From a virus: a stretch of DNA of 20,945 nt. Location: the IMG/VR virus record IMGVR_UViG_3300043313_000282, positions 1 through 20,945 of that record, one strand, 5' to 3'. This document shows positions 4,751 to 20,945 of the stretch, piece by piece (position 1 is the stretch's first letter; the number at the start of each line of letters is the position of its first letter). The notes beneath the pieces were generated by a model. The model saw only the letters and a list, made by a program, of their open reading frames with translations, was not told where the DNA came from and searched no databases. Made by a program: the position numbers and the translations under genes.

Positions 4751-5127
4751 ACTACGTAACTACTTCAGGACCTCTCTTTGATGGTCGAGCAGCCATCATC
4801 CTCAAAGAGGCTACGGATGCTATCGGTCAGCAGGTTGCTGAAGAGGGTCTGGATCTCATTCAGTCAGACCTCGCTCGCGTCATCCGTACTCATCCCACGG
4901 GACGCTACATTCCTAGCGTGAAGGTTGTTCGTAGAGGTTCAGGTTCCTTTACCGTGGGAACCGATATCGTCTACGGTGCCTGGATCGAAGGTACAGGCTC
5001 TAGGAATGCTACGACTAGGTTCAAGGGCTACTCGACCTTCCGACGTCAGCGACAGGTTCTGGAAGCTCGTGCAGGTGTCATCGGTAACCGTGTCATCAAG
5101 CCGTACGTGGGGAGGTTGAACGGATGA
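4747..5127 (+). CDS. head-tail joining (HK97 gp10-like) protein
   Basis: A 126-aa neck or tail-completion protein. The N-terminal half is helical (KEATDAIGQQVAEEGLDLIQ). It is followed by HPTGRYIPSVKVVRR and a beta-rich segment FTVGTDIVYGAWIEGTGSRN that resembles the gp10-like family of joining proteins. The start overlaps the adaptor stop (ATGA), with AAGGA about ten bases upstream, and its own stop overlaps the next start in the same way. The order adaptor, joining protein, tail terminator, tail tube is typical of siphovirus neck modules. The family call is from pattern recognition, without an alignment. Confidence 0.75.
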   Translation: MNYVTTSGPLFDGRAAIILKEATDAIGQQVAEEGLDLIQSDLARVIRTHPTGRYIPSVKVVRRGSGSFTVGTDIVYGAWIEGTGSRNATTRFKGYSTFRRQRQVLEARAGVIGNRVIKPYVGRLNG

Positions 5128-5582
5128 CACTCAACTCGAAGGACCTCATCGAAACGGTTGCCTCGCACGCTATGGCTACTGGGTACTTCGATCAGGTTAA
5201 CCAGCACGAGGCTAAGAACGGTCCTGGCACGTCGATGGTTTGTGATGTCACGATCCTCTCGGGCCGCGCATTGGCATTGGCATCAGGCCTTGATGCAACC
5301 TCGGCCATGATCGTGATGTCTGTCGTCGTGTACCAGAGCATGCTTAAGGAACCGCAAGATGACATCGATGGCGAAATCATGGATGCTATCGATAGCCTGA
5401 TCAACCGTTACTGTGGAGACTTCACCTTGGATGGTCTGATCAGGAACGTCGACATCAAGGGTGCTTATGGTCAGGAGCTTAGCTGGACCATGGGTCACAT
5501 CGACAAGAGCAAGCAGCCGGTTCGAGCTGCTGAAATCTTCCTTCCCCTCGTCATCAACGATGCGTGGACCGACACTCCCTAA
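5124..5582 (+). CDS. tail terminator/tail completion protein
   Basis: A 152-aa protein likely to cap the tail tube at the neck and stop its polymerisation. It opens with a helix (SKDLIETVASHAMATGYFDQVNQHE), has central strands (MVCDVTILSGRALALASGL; MIVMSVVVYQSML), and ends in a strand leading to EIFLPLVINDAW, an alpha/beta layout like that of tail terminator proteins. GGGGAGG is eight bases before the ATG, and the start overlaps the previous stop (ATGA). Placement between the gp10-like gene and the first tail-tube gene supports the role. No catalytic motif is expected. The call is inferred mainly from order and secondary-structure character. Confidence 0.7.
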   Translation: MTLNSKDLIETVASHAMATGYFDQVNQHEAKNGPGTSMVCDVTILSGRALALASGLDATSAMIVMSVVVYQSMLKEPQDDIDGEIMDAIDSLINRYCGDFTLDGLIRNVDIKGAYGQELSWTMGHIDKSKQPVRAAEIFLPLVINDAWTDTP

Positions 5583-7705: not shown

Positions 7706-9549
7706 GTAACGATGTCGTAGTTCACGTCAAGGCTGAGAATCACACCCAGAGCGATCTTGATGGTGCGCGCAGGGGCTTTGCTGACTTCGCACGGGATACT
7801 GTAAAGAGAGGTATCTCGGCAGGTACTGAAGCCGGACAGAGCTTTAGCAAGTCCTTGTCTGGTGCCGTATCTTCTGCTAGCGGTAGTCTAGGACCCATTC
7901 TTGCTGGGGCTGGAGTTGTTGCTGCACCACTCATCGGAGCCAGTATCGCGGGCGCCATCGTTGGTGGTGTAGGTGTTGGCGGTGTCGTCGGTGGCTTCTT
8001 GGCCGCGAAGGATGACCCTCGCGTAGCTGGTGCTCTCAAGGGAATGCAGGCAGAACTGCAGAGTGAATTCAAGAGTGCTGGACAGACCTTTGTGCAGCCC
8101 ACCCTTGAAGGTATCAGCACTATTAACAAGGCGATCGACACGATTGACCTGCAGGGTATATTCGCTGACTCTTCCAAGTTCGTCAAGCCTCTCACCGATG
8201 GTATTGGTAGTGCTATCGAAGACATTGGTAACGGTGTCGAAGATATCATGGGCAAGGCTGGGCCAGCTGTCGAAGCCTTTGGTAATAGCTTCGCCGAGAT
8301 CGGTGATGCTGTCGGTGATACCTTCTCGCTTCTATCCAACGATGCTGATGAGGGTGCGTCGGCTATCGACGACCTAACGAACGCCACGGTCAACTTCATC
8401 AAGACCGCAGGTGGCATCGTTCATGGCTTGGCTGAATTCAAGGGAGGTCTTGACAGTCTCGATAACGGGATCGACTCCTTTAGGTACAAGTTGGAAGACA
8501 TTGCATCCATCGACGCGTTCGGCGATGGCGCGCAGTTCGATATCACGGCTGACGGTTACGCTAGAAACACTGAGGCAGCAGAACTTTACCGTCAAGGTCT
8601 AATTGGTGCCAAGGGTGAGGTGGACGACTACAACGCCTATACCAAGGCCCAGGCGGAGAAGCAAACTGAGCTCCAGGAAGCTGTTGGTGGTAGTACTCTC
8701 GCTATGACGAACTTCTCCGAGGAGAATGCCAAAGCTTCTGCCACTACCGAGGGCGTTACTAGGGCTATCGACGAACTCAACAATTCACTCCTTGCTGAAG
8801 TCGATCCTGTATTCAACCTTCTGGATGCTCAGAAGGGTCTGGCCGACGCACAGAAGGACGTTACTAAGGCTATCGACAAGTTCGGTAAGAAGTCACCTGA
8901 GGCACAGGAAGCTCTTCGCGATCTAGCCACCAAGGCACTCAAGCTGGACGTGGCAGGTAAGGAGCTTGGAGGCACGTTCGACGGTAAGATGACTCCTGCT
9001 ATGCGTAGGACGCTCTCTGCCGCAGGACTAACCAAGGGACAGATCAGCAGCCTCGAGGGTCAGTTCCGTTCAGCTAGACGTACTGGTGATAACTTCGCAC
9101 GTACTTACGCTGCTAAGCTACGAGTCGATGGCTACCCTGCAGTGTATAGCAGGCTCTATAGTGTGAAGGATGTCATTAACGATATTCCTCGTTCTGTCAA
9201 CATTGCCATGCGCATCACGGGTGTGAGCTCTGCCTCTGCAGCTGCGGCTGCGATTCGTAAGAACATGGCAACTGGCGGTATCAAGGGCGCAGCTAACGGT
9301 GCCACGTCTTCTGGACTCACCTGGACTGGTGAGCATGGACCCGAGCTCGTTGACCTTCCGCCAGGCAGCAAGGTCCACTCGAACGGTGACAGTATGCGAA
9401 TGGTCGGTCAGGGAGGACTTTCAGGTCCTGTTACGATCAACTTGGTATTGGCCGACGGTAGTGTTCTAGGCAAGGCAGTTCTCCCATCGCTACGCGAAAT
9501 GAACCGTGCACGCTTCGGTAACTCTGCCGAAAGGATGTTGGCCGGATGA
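7702..9549 (+). CDS. tail tape measure protein
   Basis: A 615-aa tape measure protein, which sets tail length and is thought to be ejected with the DNA. It follows the chaperone gene directly and begins with GTG inside that gene's frameshifted stop (GTGA). The N-terminal ~60 residues are amphipathic and charged. Residues ~60-105 form a long Gly/Ala/Val hydrophobic stretch able to insert into membranes, and the middle is helical with heptad-like character (for example LDAQKGLADAQKDVTKAID). The C-terminus (TGEHGPELVDLPPGSKVHS) is a segment common at tape measure ends. At roughly 0.15 nm per residue, the tail should be near 90 nm. No lysozyme or peptidase motif was noticed inside it. Confidence 0.9.
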   Translation: MSNDVVVHVKAENHTQSDLDGARRGFADFARDTVKRGISAGTEAGQSFSKSLSGAVSSASGSLGPILAGAGVVAAPLIGASIAGAIVGGVGVGGVVGGFLAAKDDPRVAGALKGMQAELQSEFKSAGQTFVQPTLEGISTINKAIDTIDLQGIFADSSKFVKPLTDGIGSAIEDIGNGVEDIMGKAGPAVEAFGNSFAEIGDAVGDTFSLLSNDADEGASAIDDLTNATVNFIKTAGGIVHGLAEFKGGLDSLDNGIDSFRYKLEDIASIDAFGDGAQFDITADGYARNTEAAELYRQGLIGAKGEVDDYNAYTKAQAEKQTELQEAVGGSTLAMTNFSEENAKASATTEGVTRAIDELNNSLLAEVDPVFNLLDAQKGLADAQKDVTKAIDKFGKKSPEAQEALRDLATKALKLDVAGKELGGTFDGKMTPAMRRTLSAAGLTKGQISSLEGQFRSARRTGDNFARTYAAKLRVDGYPAVYSRLYSVKDVINDIPRSVNIAMRITGVSSASAAAAAIRKNMATGGIKGAANGATSSGLTWTGEHGPELVDLPPGSKVHSNGDSMRMVGQGGLSGPVTINLVLADGSVLGKAVLPSLREMNRARFGNSAERMLAG

Positions 9550-12425: not shown

Positions 12426-12941
12426 ATGACTGTCACACCGTTCGAAGTCGGTGACCCTGTAACTGCTGATGCTCTTGATGAACAGTTCGATCCACCTATG
12501 GGCAGGCTTCGCCAAGGTACTACACAAACTGGATTGGCATCCGCAGCGGTAGTTGCAATAACCTTTGCGGCAACCGATGAGCTCGACACTCACGGCTTCC
12601 ATGATCCTGCATCCAGTAATACTAAGGTGACACCTACTGTACCTGGTTGGTACGATGTTCGTGGTGGAGTGTCACTCGCTGGGCAGACAGACTTTACGGT
12701 GGTGCAGGCTGTGATTGGTAAGTCAGGAGCCTCATTCCTGGCGCCTGCACATCGGATCACCCCGTCAGCGTCAGCACAGTCACTAGTGCTACCAGTACAG
12801 GCACTAGTGCAGTGCAACGGCACCACTGACTATTTCGAACTGTACGCATCGGCTACACGATCGGGTGCTGGCGTCTGGGCGACAGTAATATCTAGCCAGT
12901 TCGCATGTGTACTAGAATGGAAGTTCGAGCGTCCACTGTAA
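12426..12941 (+). CDS. putative tail fibre / C1q-like structural protein
   Basis: A 171-aa beta-rich protein and the last gene of the virion operon. A short N-terminal segment (VTPFEVGDPVTADALDEQFD) may attach it to the tail tip. The rest shows the strand order of C1q/TNF-like trimeric heads: a VPGWYDVRGGVSL strand, central FTVVQAVIGKSG, then YFELYASATRSGAGVW and a closing FACVLEWKFER. AAGGAG lies five bases before ATG 12426, and the previous gene ends ten bases upstream. Such small heads usually form adhesins at fibre tips. The fold call is from pattern only, and receptor binding is an inference. Confidence 0.6.
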   Translation: MTVTPFEVGDPVTADALDEQFDPPMGRLRQGTTQTGLASAAVVAITFAATDELDTHGFHDPASSNTKVTPTVPGWYDVRGGVSLAGQTDFTVVQAVIGKSGASFLAPAHRITPSASAQSLVLPVQALVQCNGTTDYFELYASATRSGAGVWATVISSQFACVLEWKFERPL

Positions 12942-13062
12942 TCTAACAGCGTAGATTTCTCAGCTATAACGACATAGTGCGACCAGTACGTCATTTGGTC
13001 TAACACCTCAGCTAACTGGTCTGTTCTTAGTCTAAAGTTGAGAAATGAGAACTCAAGCAGCA
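12942..13062. other. noncoding stretch with inverted repeats between convergent operons
   Basis: No credible gene. GACCAGT (12981-12987) can pair with ACTGGTC (13015-13021), and GACCA (12981-12985) alternatively with TGGTC (12996-13000). The segment from GCGACCA to TTTGGTCTAAC closely resembles the inner hairpin at 3520-3542. TTGAG and CTCAA around 13038-13056 can form another small stem. It leads into the strong terminator-like hairpin and may be part of the 3' untranslated end of the virion transcript. Confidence 0.4.
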
Positions 13063-13095
13063 AGAAGGCCCGGGTCATTTAGACTCGGGCCTTCT
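13063..13095. terminator. bidirectional terminator hairpin between the two operons
   Basis: A 14-bp stem with one wobble pair (13063-13076 with 13082-13095) closes the 5-base loop ATTTA. Ten consecutive pairs, AGAAGGCCCG with CGGGCCTTCT, are perfect. It sits between the end of the rightward virion operon and the stop of the last leftward gene, nine bases from the latter, where a shared terminator is expected. U-rich tails are poor on both strands; actinobacterial terminators often lack them. Confidence 0.8.
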
Positions 13096-13103
13096 CTGTC
13101 GAA

Positions 13104-13451
13104 CTACTTGACGGGCTGCGTGACTCCTCGAACTCTTGCCCACGGATAGAACGCGTGTACGGTACCGTCGAGGATGTAGCCTCTGATGCCGTCCTCATGC
13201 ACCGACCAGGTCTCGGCCCCGAAGGTAACCTGCTCGCCCTCCAGGCCAACCGTCAGCGGTGCCTTGGTGTCGAACTGTTCGATTGCCAAGGTCTCTCCCA
13301 TGTTGCGCTTGACGTCCTTCTTGCCAGTACGTTCCTCGAGTGAAGGCACTCTGCTTCCCTTCTCCAACCCTCTGATGAGAGTTCGTTTTCCTTGGCCTAG
13401 TTCTTCCTGCGTCGTGATCTCGTGCCAGTCGAACTGGTTGATGTGGTTCAT
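13104..13451 (-). CDS. hypothetical protein, last gene of leftward operon
   Basis: A 115-aa protein of unknown function. The N-terminal half is hydrophilic with many charged residues (TQEELGQGKRTLIRGLEKGS). The C-terminal half looks like a small beta domain (PLTVGLEGEQVTFGAETWSVHEDG, aromatic FYPWARVRG). I chose ATG 13451 because it overlaps the stop of the 35-aa gene (ATGA); a longer reading from a TTG at 13493 would overlap that gene by a further 42 bases. No signal peptide, membrane segment or catalytic motif is seen. It ends just before the terminator hairpin. Its place with the small membrane-protein genes makes a host-takeover or lysis role possible, but nothing proves it. Confidence 0.6.
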   Translation of the reverse strand: MNHINQFDWHEITTQEELGQGKRTLIRGLEKGSRVPSLEERTGKKDVKRNMGETLAIEQFDTKAPLTVGLEGEQVTFGAETWSVHEDGIRGYILDGTVHAFYPWARVRGVTQPVK

Positions 13452-13555
13452 CGTACGAACGTCTCGATGGCCCCGTATACCATGACGGTACAAACTACAA
13501 GACTGATGACCTTCATGTACGTGGTTGGCATGTAGTAGTTGATCTTCTTACGCAT
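13448..13555 (-). CDS. 35-aa membrane peptide
   Basis: A short gene on the minus strand encoding 35 residues. It begins MRKKINYYMPTTYMK and is followed by one hydrophobic segment, VISLVVCTVMVYGAIETFV, then a final Arg. The basic start and single ~19-residue hydrophobic run suggest an inner-membrane peptide with cytoplasmic N-terminus. GGCAGGAGAG lies four bases before the ATG, a strong ribosome-binding site, and the TGA overlaps the next ATG (ATGA). This operon logic argues that it is real despite its size. Function is unknown; a small holin-like or membrane-perturbing peptide is one possibility. Confidence 0.65.
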   Translation of the reverse strand: MRKKINYYMPTTYMKVISLVVCTVMVYGAIETFVR

Positions 13556-13578
13556 CGTACTCTCCTGCCCGGGTTGAC

Positions 13579-13791
13579 TTATGCGGCTGCGTGACGGACA
13601 CTTACAGTTTCAAAGTCGTAGTTGTGCAGTTCGACTTCGAACACACTTGCGGAACCACTACACCTCAACGAGCTCGCTAGCATCCGGAGCGACCAGAGCT
13701 CGTTGGCTCCACACGCTACCACTACGCGATCGCCTGCTTCGGCGTACAGCTTCCCAGACTTGCCATCATAGGTTACGAACAGTGCGAACAT
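13579..13791 (-). CDS. hypothetical 70-aa protein
   Basis: A small protein of unknown function in the leftward operon. It starts with a beta-like FALFVTYDGKSGKLYAEAGD and continues with VVVACGANELWSLRMLASSL and a C-terminal strand region. GGAGGG lies five bases before the ATG. The predicted fold is small and mixed, with two Cys residues and no membrane anchor. The coding region contains a 10-bp inverted repeat, CAACGAGCTC/GAGCTCGTTG (13666-13675 with 13696-13705), that could form a hairpin in DNA or mRNA. No family is recognised. Confidence 0.55.
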   Translation of the reverse strand: MFALFVTYDGKSGKLYAEAGDRVVVACGANELWSLRMLASSLRCSGSASVFEVELHNYDFETVSVRHAAA

Positions 13792-13821
13792 AGCGACCCT
13801 CCAAGGAATTGACTATTTACT

Positions 13822-13849
13822 TGACGTCCCTTTCCCTCGAAGGGCCGTC
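13822..13849 (-). repeat. intergenic hairpin containing one copy of a 21-bp exact repeat
   Basis: Bases 13822-13842 are identical to 16120-16140 inside the replication gene. Here the copy forms most of a foldback: GACG and CCCTT pair with AAGGG and CGTC around TCCCTCG, with one internal mismatch (13823-13849). It lies five bases beyond the stop of the leftward 155-aa gene, so it could act as a 3' end or processing signal; no U-tract follows. Confidence 0.6.
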
Positions 13850-13854
13850 CTATG

Positions 13855-14322
13855 TTACTTCTCGACGCTGAGTCGGATCATCTCGCCGTGTAGTACGTTC
13901 GCGATGCCATCACAATCCGGTACGTCGCAGTTGATTGCCCAGTTGGGACCGAGGATCATAACGATAGGTTCGGTACCGTCCATGAGTGTGTAGAGGTTCG
14001 TAGGTGCAGCCTGAGTGTCTTCCGAGGATGCGAAGATGCTGATTACCAGGCTACCTTCCTGGCAGCTACCCATATCGAGTGCCTCAGTCAGAGGGTGGAT
14101 GGTAGCGAAGGTACCACATTCGATTCCTCCCGCGGTCAGAGCCGAAGCAATCTGTGTTGCGGCGTAGTACTTGACCGCCTCCGAGGGAACTGCGGAAGGC
14201 TCCACTACGCGGTGCTCGAGCGTTCCTTTACCGTCTTGTGAGGCCTCCCATGCGAAGAGTCCGGAGGTGACAACCGCAGCTCCAATTGCGGTTCCGATCA
14301 AGATCTGCTTGAGGTACTGCAT
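13855..14322 (-). CDS. membrane-anchored extracytoplasmic cysteine protein
   Basis: A 155-aa protein with an N-terminal anchor: QYLKQILIGTAIGAAVVTSG (residues 2-21) is a basic start followed by a hydrophobic helix, either an uncleaved signal anchor or a Sec signal. No lipobox Cys is present. The outside domain has four cysteines (69, 87, 132, 137), enough for two disulfides, in contexts GIECGTF, GSCQEG and NCDVPDC. AAGGAG lies seven bases before the ATG. I know of no enzyme with this pattern; similar small exported domains occur in actinobacteria and their phages. In a phage early operon such a protein might block superinfection or modify the envelope. That is an inference. Confidence 0.65.
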   Translation of the reverse strand: MQYLKQILIGTAIGAAVVTSGLFAWEASQDGKGTLEHRVVEPSAVPSEAVKYYAATQIASALTAGGIECGTFATIHPLTEALDMGSCQEGSLVISIFASSEDTQAAPTNLYTLMDGTEPIVMILGPNWAINCDVPDCDGIANVLHGEMIRLSVEK

Positions 14323-14340
14323 GTTCGAACTCCTTAGGGT

Positions 14341-14393
14341 GTAACAGTGGGGCCCAAGTTTACTAGTGAGTGACTTGGACCCCGACTGAGTTA
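14341..14393. terminator. long hairpin between replication gene and membrane-protein gene
   Basis: GGGGCCCAAGT (14349-14359) pairs with ACTTGGACCCC (14373-14383) with one mismatch. Flanking GTAAC-AGT and ACT-GA-GTTAC extend the stem through 14341-14393 with small bulges. It lies between the stop of the leftward replication gene and the next ribosome-binding site. It may attenuate or terminate transcription, or separate mRNA segments by processing; no clear U-tract is present. Confidence 0.5.
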
Positions 14394-14402
14394 CTATTGG
14401 GG

Positions 14403-16433
14403 CTAACTGTTAGCTTCTCGGTGTGAGACGTTCACGACGATCTTGTCGCCCTTATCTTCAGGGTTCGTGAGTGCCCGGTACTTCGGACGACTATCAGTTC
14501 CCGACTTGACAACCAGACCCAACTCAACTGCCTGCTTCAGTGCATTGTAGAAGGGCGTGTTACTCTTACCCGTCATCTTGAACCACTGCGTCGTGCCCAC
14601 ACCGTCAACTTCTGGTTGCATCTTCCAGAGAGTCGATACAATGTCAGACACCGTAGAAGGGATCTTACTCCCTTGCTCCCCGCTTTCCTCCCCTGTTTGC
14701 TCCCCGGTAGCAATCACAAGAGAAGTACGCTGCTTACCATTAACGTCGAACATCCCATCAACTTCAACGCGCAACACATCGAGGAAGCGATCTGGTGCCT
14801 CCTCGTCATCCTTCTGCTTCGTCACTTCGAGTTTCAAACGTCCGTCACTGGTCTTACCCGATAGACCTAGCTCGGTGTCAATAGCGCCGCCCAGCGTAGA
14901 TGATCCACGACCGCGACTCTTATCTTGGTGTCCTGAGTGGTGCAGGATCAAGACGCACGCACCAGAGATTCGCCGAAGTCTGTCAGCGTTAGCTACTACG
15001 ATGCCCATGTCTCTGGCACCGTTCTCATCAGCACCTGCAGTGGACCTTGCTAGTGTGTCAATCACAATCAATGACGGCTTCAGGATCTCTACGGCCTTGG
15101 CTAAATTCTCTACCTCTTCGGGGTCCGAAAGGTTTGCCGCCATTGGAAGAGCCTTAACTGGTAACCTCCGACCGAGCTCGTTGTGGAATTGCTTCCACGC
15201 ACGAGTACGAACACCGAAGCCCTTTACACCCTCCGCTACGATGTAAAGAACCTGTTCGGCCTTCTGCACCTTATGGCCTTGCCAGTCCTTACCTGTGGCG
15301 ATGTGCATCGACCAGTCGATCGCAAGGAAGCTCTTGCCAACACCCCTGTCAGCAAACAACATCGCGAGCGTGTCACGTACAAGGTAATCCTGGATCAGAT
15401 ACTCTGGGGGATCGAGTGCCTCGATCTCCTCCAAGTCCATCATTAGATCCAGGAAGCTCATACCTGATCGACTCACCTCACTAACTACAGCTTCAGGTAC
15501 CTTAACCTTCTGGTCCTTCGATCCAGTAGCTTGGAATCGCTTGAGTTCGTCGATGTTGTAGATGCCCGAAGGCCAATTGCCTGCTTCACTATAGATATTC
15601 GCTACACCACAGTTGATGTGACCAATCGATGCACTCGTGTGGTAACCTTCGTAGCCGCTGTGTGCTAGCTCCACACAATATGCTTCGCGATCCCACTTAG
15701 TGCCCTTGCGAAGGACTGGATGGTGCCATCCATTCGACATCAGGAAGTCCACCGACTTCAAGGTGTCTGCGTCAACCTTCGTGCGGTCGAAGTCTACACT
15801 CTCACGAGTACGTGCACCCGTATTGGCCAACTTGCCTGCTAGCCAACCAGGCCAATCTGCACACTCTTCGAGCGGTACCTCAAGCCTGTAGGTACCAGCA
15901 TCAGTTGTTACACCTGGTGCGACTACCAACAGCTTGTCGGCTGCGATATCAATACACTCAGGCCACCCAGGTACATCGGCTCGCCGACCTACAAAGGTAT
16001 CAAAGGTCTTCTTGAACCAGATGTGCCTACCACCCGAAGGCGTACGTGTTATTGTAGTGTGCGGAAGCTTCCCGTAGGTTGCCTCCAACTCAACGAGCTG
16101 GTCTGAACCGTGACTCCCGTGACGTCCCTTTCCCTCGAAGCGACAGTTCCCGGGTCCTGCGTCCTCGTCTCGGTCCAGCGGCTTGCACTTGTCGTCGACG
16201 TCGAGAATAACGTACCCTGCCGGTCCGACGACCAAGCCTACACCACACTGACCATTTGCGAAGCTGAAGAGTCTTGCCAACTCAGTCAGGTCAGTAGTAG
16301 CATCGTTGTGACCCTTCCCACCCTTATCCCTCGGAATCAACGGTGCCTTATTCCGCCCGAGAGGAAGTGACGGGATGTTGTACTTAGTAACGAACTCCTG
16401 CGCGAGAGCGAGGGATTGCTTCGTTGACTGCAT
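14403..16433 (-). CDS. primase-polymerase (AEP) / RecA-like helicase replication protein
   Basis: A 676-aa fusion that probably primes and unwinds the phage genome. The N-terminal primase-polymerase domain (~5-200) has the metal motif DVD (78-80), SGGRH (133-137) and a later acidic strand IDIAAD with Asp162, as in bifunctional primase-polymerase proteins. Between the first two motifs is an unusually long charged insert (~82-111) that contains a 21-bp repeat copy (codons 99-105). The second half is an AAA_25/RepA-like RecA fold: Walker A ADRGVGKS (361-368), Walker B LIVID ending at Asp459, and ILHHSG with His498-His499. The last ~90 residues look like a winged-helix region. GAGGAGG lies seven bases before ATG 16433. 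It is the only replication gene seen, so host polymerase is presumably needed for elongation. Confidence 0.9.
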   Translation of the reverse strand: MQSTKQSLALAQEFVTKYNIPSLPLGRNKAPLIPRDKGGKGHNDATTDLTELARLFSFANGQCGVGLVVGPAGYVILDVDDKCKPLDRDEDAGPGNCRFEGKGRHGSHGSDQLVELEATYGKLPHTTITRTPSGGRHIWFKKTFDTFVGRRADVPGWPECIDIAADKLLVVAPGVTTDAGTYRLEVPLEECADWPGWLAGKLANTGARTRESVDFDRTKVDADTLKSVDFLMSNGWHHPVLRKGTKWDREAYCVELAHSGYEGYHTSASIGHINCGVANIYSEAGNWPSGIYNIDELKRFQATGSKDQKVKVPEAVVSEVSRSGMSFLDLMMDLEEIEALDPPEYLIQDYLVRDTLAMLFADRGVGKSFLAIDWSMHIATGKDWQGHKVQKAEQVLYIVAEGVKGFGVRTRAWKQFHNELGRRLPVKALPMAANLSDPEEVENLAKAVEILKPSLIVIDTLARSTAGADENGARDMGIVVANADRLRRISGACVLILHHSGHQDKSRGRGSSTLGGAIDTELGLSGKTSDGRLKLEVTKQKDDEEAPDRFLDVLRVEVDGMFDVNGKQRTSLVIATGEQTGEESGEQGSKIPSTVSDIVSTLWKMQPEVDGVGTTQWFKMTGKSNTPFYNALKQAVELGLVVKSGTDSRPKYRALTNPEDKGDKIVVNVSHREANS
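16120..16140 (-). repeat. coding copy of the 21-bp exact repeat
   Basis: These bases match 13822-13842 exactly and differ on both flanks. They encode residues 99-105 of the replication protein, within the insert separating two primase motifs. Both copies have the same orientation and are 2298 bp apart. Confidence 0.75.
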
Positions 16434-16460
16434 TACTTGACCTCCTCACGCAGGAACGTA

Positions 16461-16709
16461 CTAGTTGCCCTCAGGCTTGAAGAACTTGATCTCGACAGAA
16501 GAAGCCTTCAGAGACGTCTTGGCCTTCAGACCTCGTTCACGTGCTACTGCGTGAACGTAGACACGCAAGCTCGCCGAAGTGCAGGTGTAGTCCACACCTC
16601 GCGCAAGTACCACCTTCTTGTCCTCCTCCAAACTGAGTCGAATCCACTCGTCCCAGTCGTACTTCTGTTGGCCTCTTCCATCGGATACTTCGCCTGTAGA
16701 ACTCTTCAC
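16461..16709 (-). CDS. hypothetical 82-aa protein, first gene of leftward operon
   Basis: A small basic protein starting with GTG behind a strong AAGGAGG (four-base spacing). It contains YDWDEWIRLSLEEDKK, a central GVDYTCTSASLRVYVHAVAR and a C-terminal strand VEIKFFKPEG. The middle helix after Thr-Cys-Thr-Ser and the basic composition are compatible with a small nucleic-acid-binding protein. I recall similar short proteins beside replication genes in actinophages, without known function. It is first in the leftward transcript, 27 bases before the replication gene, so it is probably early. A DNA-binding or replication-accessory role is an inference. Confidence 0.65.
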   Translation of the reverse strand: MKSSTGEVSDGRGQQKYDWDEWIRLSLEEDKKVVLARGVDYTCTSASLRVYVHAVARERGLKAKTSLKASSVEIKFFKPEGN

Positions 16710-16772: not shown

Positions 16773-16814
16773 AGATGTTCATCTGAAATTTCTTTGTCTC
16801 CGAGATGTTCGTCT
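16773..16814. repeat. paired operator-like palindromes AGATGTTCRTCT
   Basis: AGATGTTCATCT (16773-16784) and AGATGTTCGTCT (16803-16814) differ by one base. Each is an imperfect inverted repeat of AGATG or AGA(C/T)G arms around TT, and they start 30 bp apart, about three helical turns. The second is flanked by CC and GG, extending its dyad. The spacing and location by the leftward promoter suggest binding sites for a dimeric regulator. Confidence 0.55.
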
Positions 16815-20656: not shown

Positions 20657-20945
20657 CCGTCGACCTGAAGAAGCTCATGGCACTGTCTTCTGCAGTTCAG
20701 GAGCGAACGTCAAAGCGTCCAGCCGAAGCTCGCAAGGGTGTCGAGGCTTGGAAGAAGCAGAACATCAAGGCGTCGGCTGAGGCCACTGCGGTGTATCTGT
20801 ACGACGACATCGGTGACTGGGGTATCACGGCTGGCGACCTGGTCGAGGTGATCAACCAGATTACAGGTAACATCGACCTCCACGTCAACTCGAATGGTGG
20901 ATCCGTCAAGGACGGTATCGCCATGTACAACGGCATCAAGAACCA
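20653..20945 (+). CDS. ClpP-like prohead protease, N-terminal part
   Basis: The 5' part of the protease gene, cut by the end of the window. The true start is ATG 20653, overlapping the portal stop, with AGGAGG seven bases upstream. The first ~40 residues are helical and basic (KKLMALSSAVQERTSKRPAE). They lead into the ClpP core with YLYDDIGDWGITAGDLVEVI and the oxyanion segment NSNGGSV (79-85). Bases 20876-20945 repeat 1-70, so the sequence continues without a break from 20875 to base 1. The full gene is 750 bp and encodes 249 aa. Confidence 0.9.
   Translation, partial: MTVDLKKLMALSSAVQERTSKRPAEARKGVEAWKKQNIKASAEATAVYLYDDIGDWGITAGDLVEVINQITGNIDLHVNSNGGSVKDGIAMYNGIKN
20876..20945. repeat. terminal overlap, right copy
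   Basis: Exact copy of bases 1-70. Removing one copy leaves a circle of 20,875 bp in which the protease reading frame is continuous. Confidence 0.95.

Follow-up and report, generated by a model that had tools for sequence, protein, structure and literature searches.

The stretch of DNA analysed here, referred to as the window, comprises the 20,945 nucleotides of IMG/VR record IMGVR_UViG_3300043313_000282. Its first and last 70 bases are identical (1–70 = 20876–20945), and given this 70-bp terminal repeat the contig most likely represents a circularly closed phage genome of approximately 20,875 bp. The phage is uncultured and small, with relatives among the actinophages. The genes for the terminase, portal, head protease, capsid and tail lie on the plus strand, and the structural proteins have relatives in other viral contigs at approximately 30–78% identity. 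The minus strand carries, between 13.1 and 16.7 kb, a small replication group that includes a PrimPol–AAA_25 protein (Table 1). This replication group is carried by none of the relatives checked for it, and the nearest relative, L029, has a replication protein of a different type. No lysis gene was recognised among the scanned proteins, though the structural genes are well conserved; the minus-strand genes of no assigned role at 12426–16709 are candidates.

The replication gene is followed on the minus strand by two small co-oriented genes, here termed the upstream and the downstream gene, for both of which family-match and homologue searches gave no result. The downstream gene is a putative one, recognised by its Shine–Dalgarno sequence and its position. 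The genes beyond it also look closely packed: the stop codon of an unlisted minus-strand ORF of 35 residues with a hydrophobic stretch (13448–13555) forms an ATGA overlap with the likely ATG start, at 13451, of ORF 13104–13493, so that 13448–13555 overlaps 13104–13451. Three other features of the region were noted. A strong minus-strand hairpin at 14340–14385 (GGGGUCCAAGU...ACUUGGGCCCC, z −3.6), between the replication gene and the upstream gene, lies upstream of the Shine–Dalgarno sequence of the latter and does not cover it. A very strong bidirectional terminator-like hairpin is located at 13063–13095 between convergent gene groups (z −7.0 on the plus strand and −5.7 on the minus strand). 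The palindromes AGATGTTCATCT / AGATGTTCGTCT, at 16773–16784 and 16803–16814 and 30 bp apart, occupy a divergent intergenic region where the GC skew changes sign, and are candidate operators or a candidate origin.

Table 1. Features of the minus-strand region around the two copies of the 21-nt repeat
Feature	Position	Strand	Description
PrimPol + AAA_25 (RepA-like helicase) replication protein	14403–16433	−	676 aa
PrimPol loop	16098–16193	−	residues 81–112, 32 residues; contains the primase copy; Streptomyces PrimPol length class
21-nt repeat, primase copy	16120–16140	−	codon 98 third base to codon 105 second base, FEGKGR(H)
Upstream gene	13855–14322	−	155 aa, hydrophobic N-terminus
21-nt repeat, intergenic copy	13822–13842	−	10 nt of hairpin 5′ arm + 11 nt of loop
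RNA hairpin (predicted)	13788–13855	−	last base of upstream stop codon to one base past downstream AUG
Hairpin 5′ arm	13833–13855	−	ACAUAG, 2-nt bulge GA, CGGCCCUUCGAGGGA
Hairpin 3′ arm	13788–13808	−	UUCCUUGGAGGGUCG CUAUGU; holds Shine–Dalgarno + AUG of the downstream gene
Shine–Dalgarno GGAGGG	13797–13802	−	predicted pairing probability 1.0 (261-nt context)
Downstream gene (putative)	13579–13791	−	70 aa, start sequestered in predicted hairpin

The sequence TGACGTCCCTTTCCCTCGAAG occurs twice in the window, exactly and in the same orientation, with one copy inside the primase gene and the other in the 63-nt gap between the upstream and downstream genes. The copies are 2298 bp apart and belong to the same minus-strand gene group. 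An earlier note on this DNA had reported the identical, co-oriented pair, which is confirmed; no third copy was found on either strand of the whole window at up to three mismatches. Apart from the terminal repeat, this is the longest exact repeat of the genome, and the flanks of the two copies are unrelated (9/45 and 7/45 matches). The 21-mer is absent from the IMG/VR viral contigs and the GTDB prokaryote genomes, was found at up to three mismatches in 0 of 14 relatives, and a distant blastn search of the intergenic region against phages returned no match. The repeat is unlikely to mark an assembly misjoin: a misjoin needs both copies to exist, and the primase reading frame and domain run intact through the copy.

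Both domains of the replication protein score above their curated cut-offs (PrimPol, PF09250, 75.3 bits against 22.8; AAA_25, 124.8 against 27). The primase copy codes for part of a variable PrimPol loop that follows the DVD motif. This segment had previously been described as an unusual insert whose absence from close homologues should be looked for. The loop is not unusual: it comprises 30–36 residues in 81 of the 89 homologues measured (32 here), with a few having 7–28, and alignment with Streptomyces plasmid PrimPols places the same loop at the same position, so that the proposed comparison finds most homologues sharing its length. Arrival of the primase copy as a 21-bp insertion is likewise disfavoured, as most homologues have the same loop length, although shorter loops do exist. 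At the RNA level, no significant fold was predicted at the primase copy, and no structure comparable to that of the intergenic copy. Pairing of the primase mRNA in trans with the ribosome site of the downstream gene was also unexceptional (−21.8 kcal/mol, rank 21 of 568 windows).

The intergenic copy is part of a predicted RNA hairpin that spans the whole gap. The 63-nt intergenic sequence folds at −27.4 kcal/mol (z −4.5, with 0 of 200 shuffles as good), and the slightly longer segment 13860–13788 at −31.7 kcal/mol (z −5.8, 0 of 2000 shuffles as good); the plus strand of the same segment reaches only −16.1 kcal/mol (z −1.9). Among the 26 gene starts scored in the genome the hairpin is the most extreme (z −6.1, the next being −2.9). 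In related phage loci, z fell below −5 at only 5 of 907 Shine–Dalgarno-led starts, in a screen based on crude gene calls, in which starts folding less strongly than −18 kcal/mol were classed as not extreme and left unscored. Although a thermodynamic prediction from one sequence, the hairpin is larger and stronger than the earlier note had judged. The Shine–Dalgarno sequence and the AUG (13791–13789) are predicted to be fully paired, with a probability of approximately 1 in a 261-nt context, and the stop codon of the upstream gene (13857–13855) contacts the base of the stem. By the predicted fold, a stable helix of the mRNA strand thus takes up the ribosome site of the downstream gene, as in start-sequestering hairpins of the T4 gene e type. 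The 15-bp main stem contains four non-Watson–Crick positions, all of them G-U on the minus strand, the rest being Watson–Crick. Since the G-U pairs would be mismatches as DNA, it is apparently as RNA that the arms are held together, and RNA pairing of the main stem appears to be under selection, as would fit the G-U pattern of this single sequence.

This fold changes how the repeat relates to the hairpin. The repeat had been thought to form most of the structure; it supplies only 10 nt of the 5′ arm and 11 nt of the loop. That a hairpin exists between the genes was correctly recognised, with strong support from the fold, whereas its reading as just a stem at the end of the upstream gene falls short, since the Shine–Dalgarno sequence and the AUG are paired in it. 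A simple gene-end hairpin (−12.9 kcal/mol, z −0.6) is an artefact of truncating the folded sequence at 13800; folded whole, the gap gives a far stronger structure. A search of Rfam gave no match over the hairpin, and one weak sub-threshold hit elsewhere (13059–13177).

The arrangement of the two genes is the one expected of a translationally coupled pair, namely co-oriented neighbours in which the upstream stop codon is near a structured downstream start. By pairing the Shine–Dalgarno sequence and the AUG, the hairpin would keep translation of the downstream gene poor, and a ribosome ending the upstream gene would open the 5′ arm and free the downstream start. Translational coupling by RNA unfolding is, on the predicted structure, the most likely function of the hairpin. 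A position after a stop codon and an A+T-rich loop would also suit an intrinsic terminator or a stabiliser of transcript ends, and the sequestration of the starts of phage T4 genes e, soc, 49 and I-TevI in mRNA hairpins (PMC3014915) is similar enough to suggest a transcript switch of the gene e type in place of coupling. We regard these alternatives as unlikely. An intrinsic terminator joins a G+C stem to a T run, and no T run follows the stem of either fold; the ribosome site itself makes up the 3′ arm, at normal spacing to the AUG; a scan of the hairpin region gave neither a terminator nor a promoter; and a strong bidirectional terminator-like hairpin sits elsewhere, at 13063–13095.

The identity of the two copies was evaluated against two yardsticks. 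In null models of matched composition (300 simulated genomes each for Markov orders 0, 2 and 4), the longest repeat was 13–17 nt as a rule, with maxima over the 300 runs of 17 (order 0), 19 (order 2) and 20 (order 4), and the probability of a longest repeat of at least 21 nt, extrapolated from these simulations, is approximately 2e-4 to 3e-3. The earlier statement that an exact 21-mer is very unlikely by chance therefore holds against composition-matched random sequence. The second yardstick consisted of 76 non-redundant related phage loci of at least 9 kb, in which exact dispersed direct repeats with copies at least 300 bp apart were sought. Such a repeat of at least 21 nt is present in 14 of the 76 loci (approximately 18%) and, among the 26 loci of 18 kb or more, in 6. 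The 21-nt repeat is thus non-random but of a kind that is ordinary for phage genomes, and a striking exact repeat can prove ordinary when the yardstick is real relatives rather than shuffled sequence. A few of the 300 simulations did produce longest repeats of 19–20 nt, so that a chance match is conceivable; with approximately 18% of related loci holding such repeats against a chance of 2e-4 to 3e-3, genuine copying is the more probable origin, and we consider coincidence extremely improbable.

Other repeats were observed in the related loci. In L029, three copies that contain CGGACACGGGTGTCCG or a one-base variant, 68–69 bp apart (8497–8657), are iteron-like and fall inside the different replication gene of this related small phage. 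The related phage L017 holds TGTCAACTAGGCTATGGGTATGA three times (3271, 3752 and 4773; 23–34 nt), at least partly in intergenic positions, and in L021 GAGTGTCAACGAGTGTCAA occurs at positions 5082 and 14811, with 16 nt of it recurring at 5288. The repeats of L017 and L021 may serve as promoters or operators.

The identity most likely arose when a short segment was copied ectopically within the phage. A duplicated segment is the best supported of the readings suggested earlier, which included a recombination scar, the repeat being too long for chance and repeats of this length being common in relatives. The direction of copying can be argued both ways. Unbroken pairing of the hairpin arm beyond the edge of the repeat points to the hairpin as the source, whereas the usual family length of the primase loop favours the primase as the source, or a replacement without change of length. 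Had the 21-mer simply been pasted from the primase, it would be fortuitous that all ten arm nucleotides pair with the ribosome site, and this direction therefore needs later adaptation. The two copies would now do different jobs, the primase copy as loop-coding sequence and the intergenic copy as hairpin 5′ arm and loop. We consider it probable, for the locus as a whole, that a start-sequestering hairpin couples the two genes and that its 21-nt identity with the primase gene arose by short ectopic copying, with no functional link between the copies.

Such a link would appear to be absent, as no shared function is supported, although one feature leaves some probability of a shared role: the 11 loop nucleotides are identical to those of the primase copy and are not explained by the stem. 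With all 21 nt identical, including these unconstrained positions, and with both copies co-oriented within one minus-strand gene group, a single RNA-binding protein or antisense RNA might recognise both and so control primase expression together with the freeing of the downstream start. This shared role is doubtful. Only two copies exist, with none elsewhere at up to three mismatches, and their structural contexts differ, the primase copy having no significant fold; the presence of repeats this long in 14 of 76 related loci makes identity weak evidence. A more specific form, in which the level of primase mRNA competes for such a trans-acting factor and so times downstream translation, is very unlikely. 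Were the copies functionally linked, they would tie the mRNA of the replication gene to the expression of a downstream gene in an unusual way.

The copies might instead act as DNA, as a binding site for the PrimPol–helicase protein or as sites for excision of the intervening 2.3 kb. One copy lies inside the replication gene, and recombination between exact, equally oriented copies would delete 2298 bp. This also seems highly improbable. The two copies form no iteron array, which for an origin would comprise at least three phased copies; the repeats lie away from the region near 16.7–17.0 kb where the cumulative GC skew reaches its minimum and the palindromes AGATGTTCATCT / AGATGTTCGTCT are located; no integrase-like gene was found among the scanned proteins; and the G-U pattern favours RNA over DNA recognition. 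The suggestion that the replication protein or a primase binds both copies finds no support in two copies without iterons, with the 21-mer absent from IMG/VR and GTDB and origin-like marks elsewhere, and an origin of the iteron type was rejected on the copy number. Short repeated sequences also occur in the actinophage genomes of the cluster K mycobacteriophages, where they are reportedly multi-copy, dispersed and associated with gene starts; the present repeat has two copies, and one lies within a gene.

The replication protein resembles actinobacterial PrimPol proteins (PF09250), such as those of Streptomyces plasmids, in the domain itself, in the loop of 30–36 residues after the DVD motif and in the motif PL..RD...PG. 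It differs in that PrimPol is here fused to an AAA_25 RepA-like helicase, and identity is only approximately 30–37%. Translational coupling in which RNA unfolding frees a structured ribosome site of the next gene has been reviewed (PMC12548453), and the present locus shares with it an upstream stop codon that abuts a structure hiding the downstream Shine–Dalgarno sequence and start. At 63 nt, the gap exceeds that of the most efficiently coupled pairs, structure right after a stop codon can lower coupling (PMC12548453), and coupling is here predicted from sequence. As in the T4 hairpins, a helix in phage mRNA is predicted to pair the Shine–Dalgarno sequence and/or the AUG, and lower 30S binding would be expected. 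In T4 gene e, the start is masked in long transcripts, whereas a shorter transcript made later can be translated, which sets the timing (PMC3014915); in the present phage the scan found no internal promoter, and the genes are unrelated. The style of control is already known, and the locus contributes to it a start-sequestering hairpin, predicted to be strong, from an uncultured small phage.
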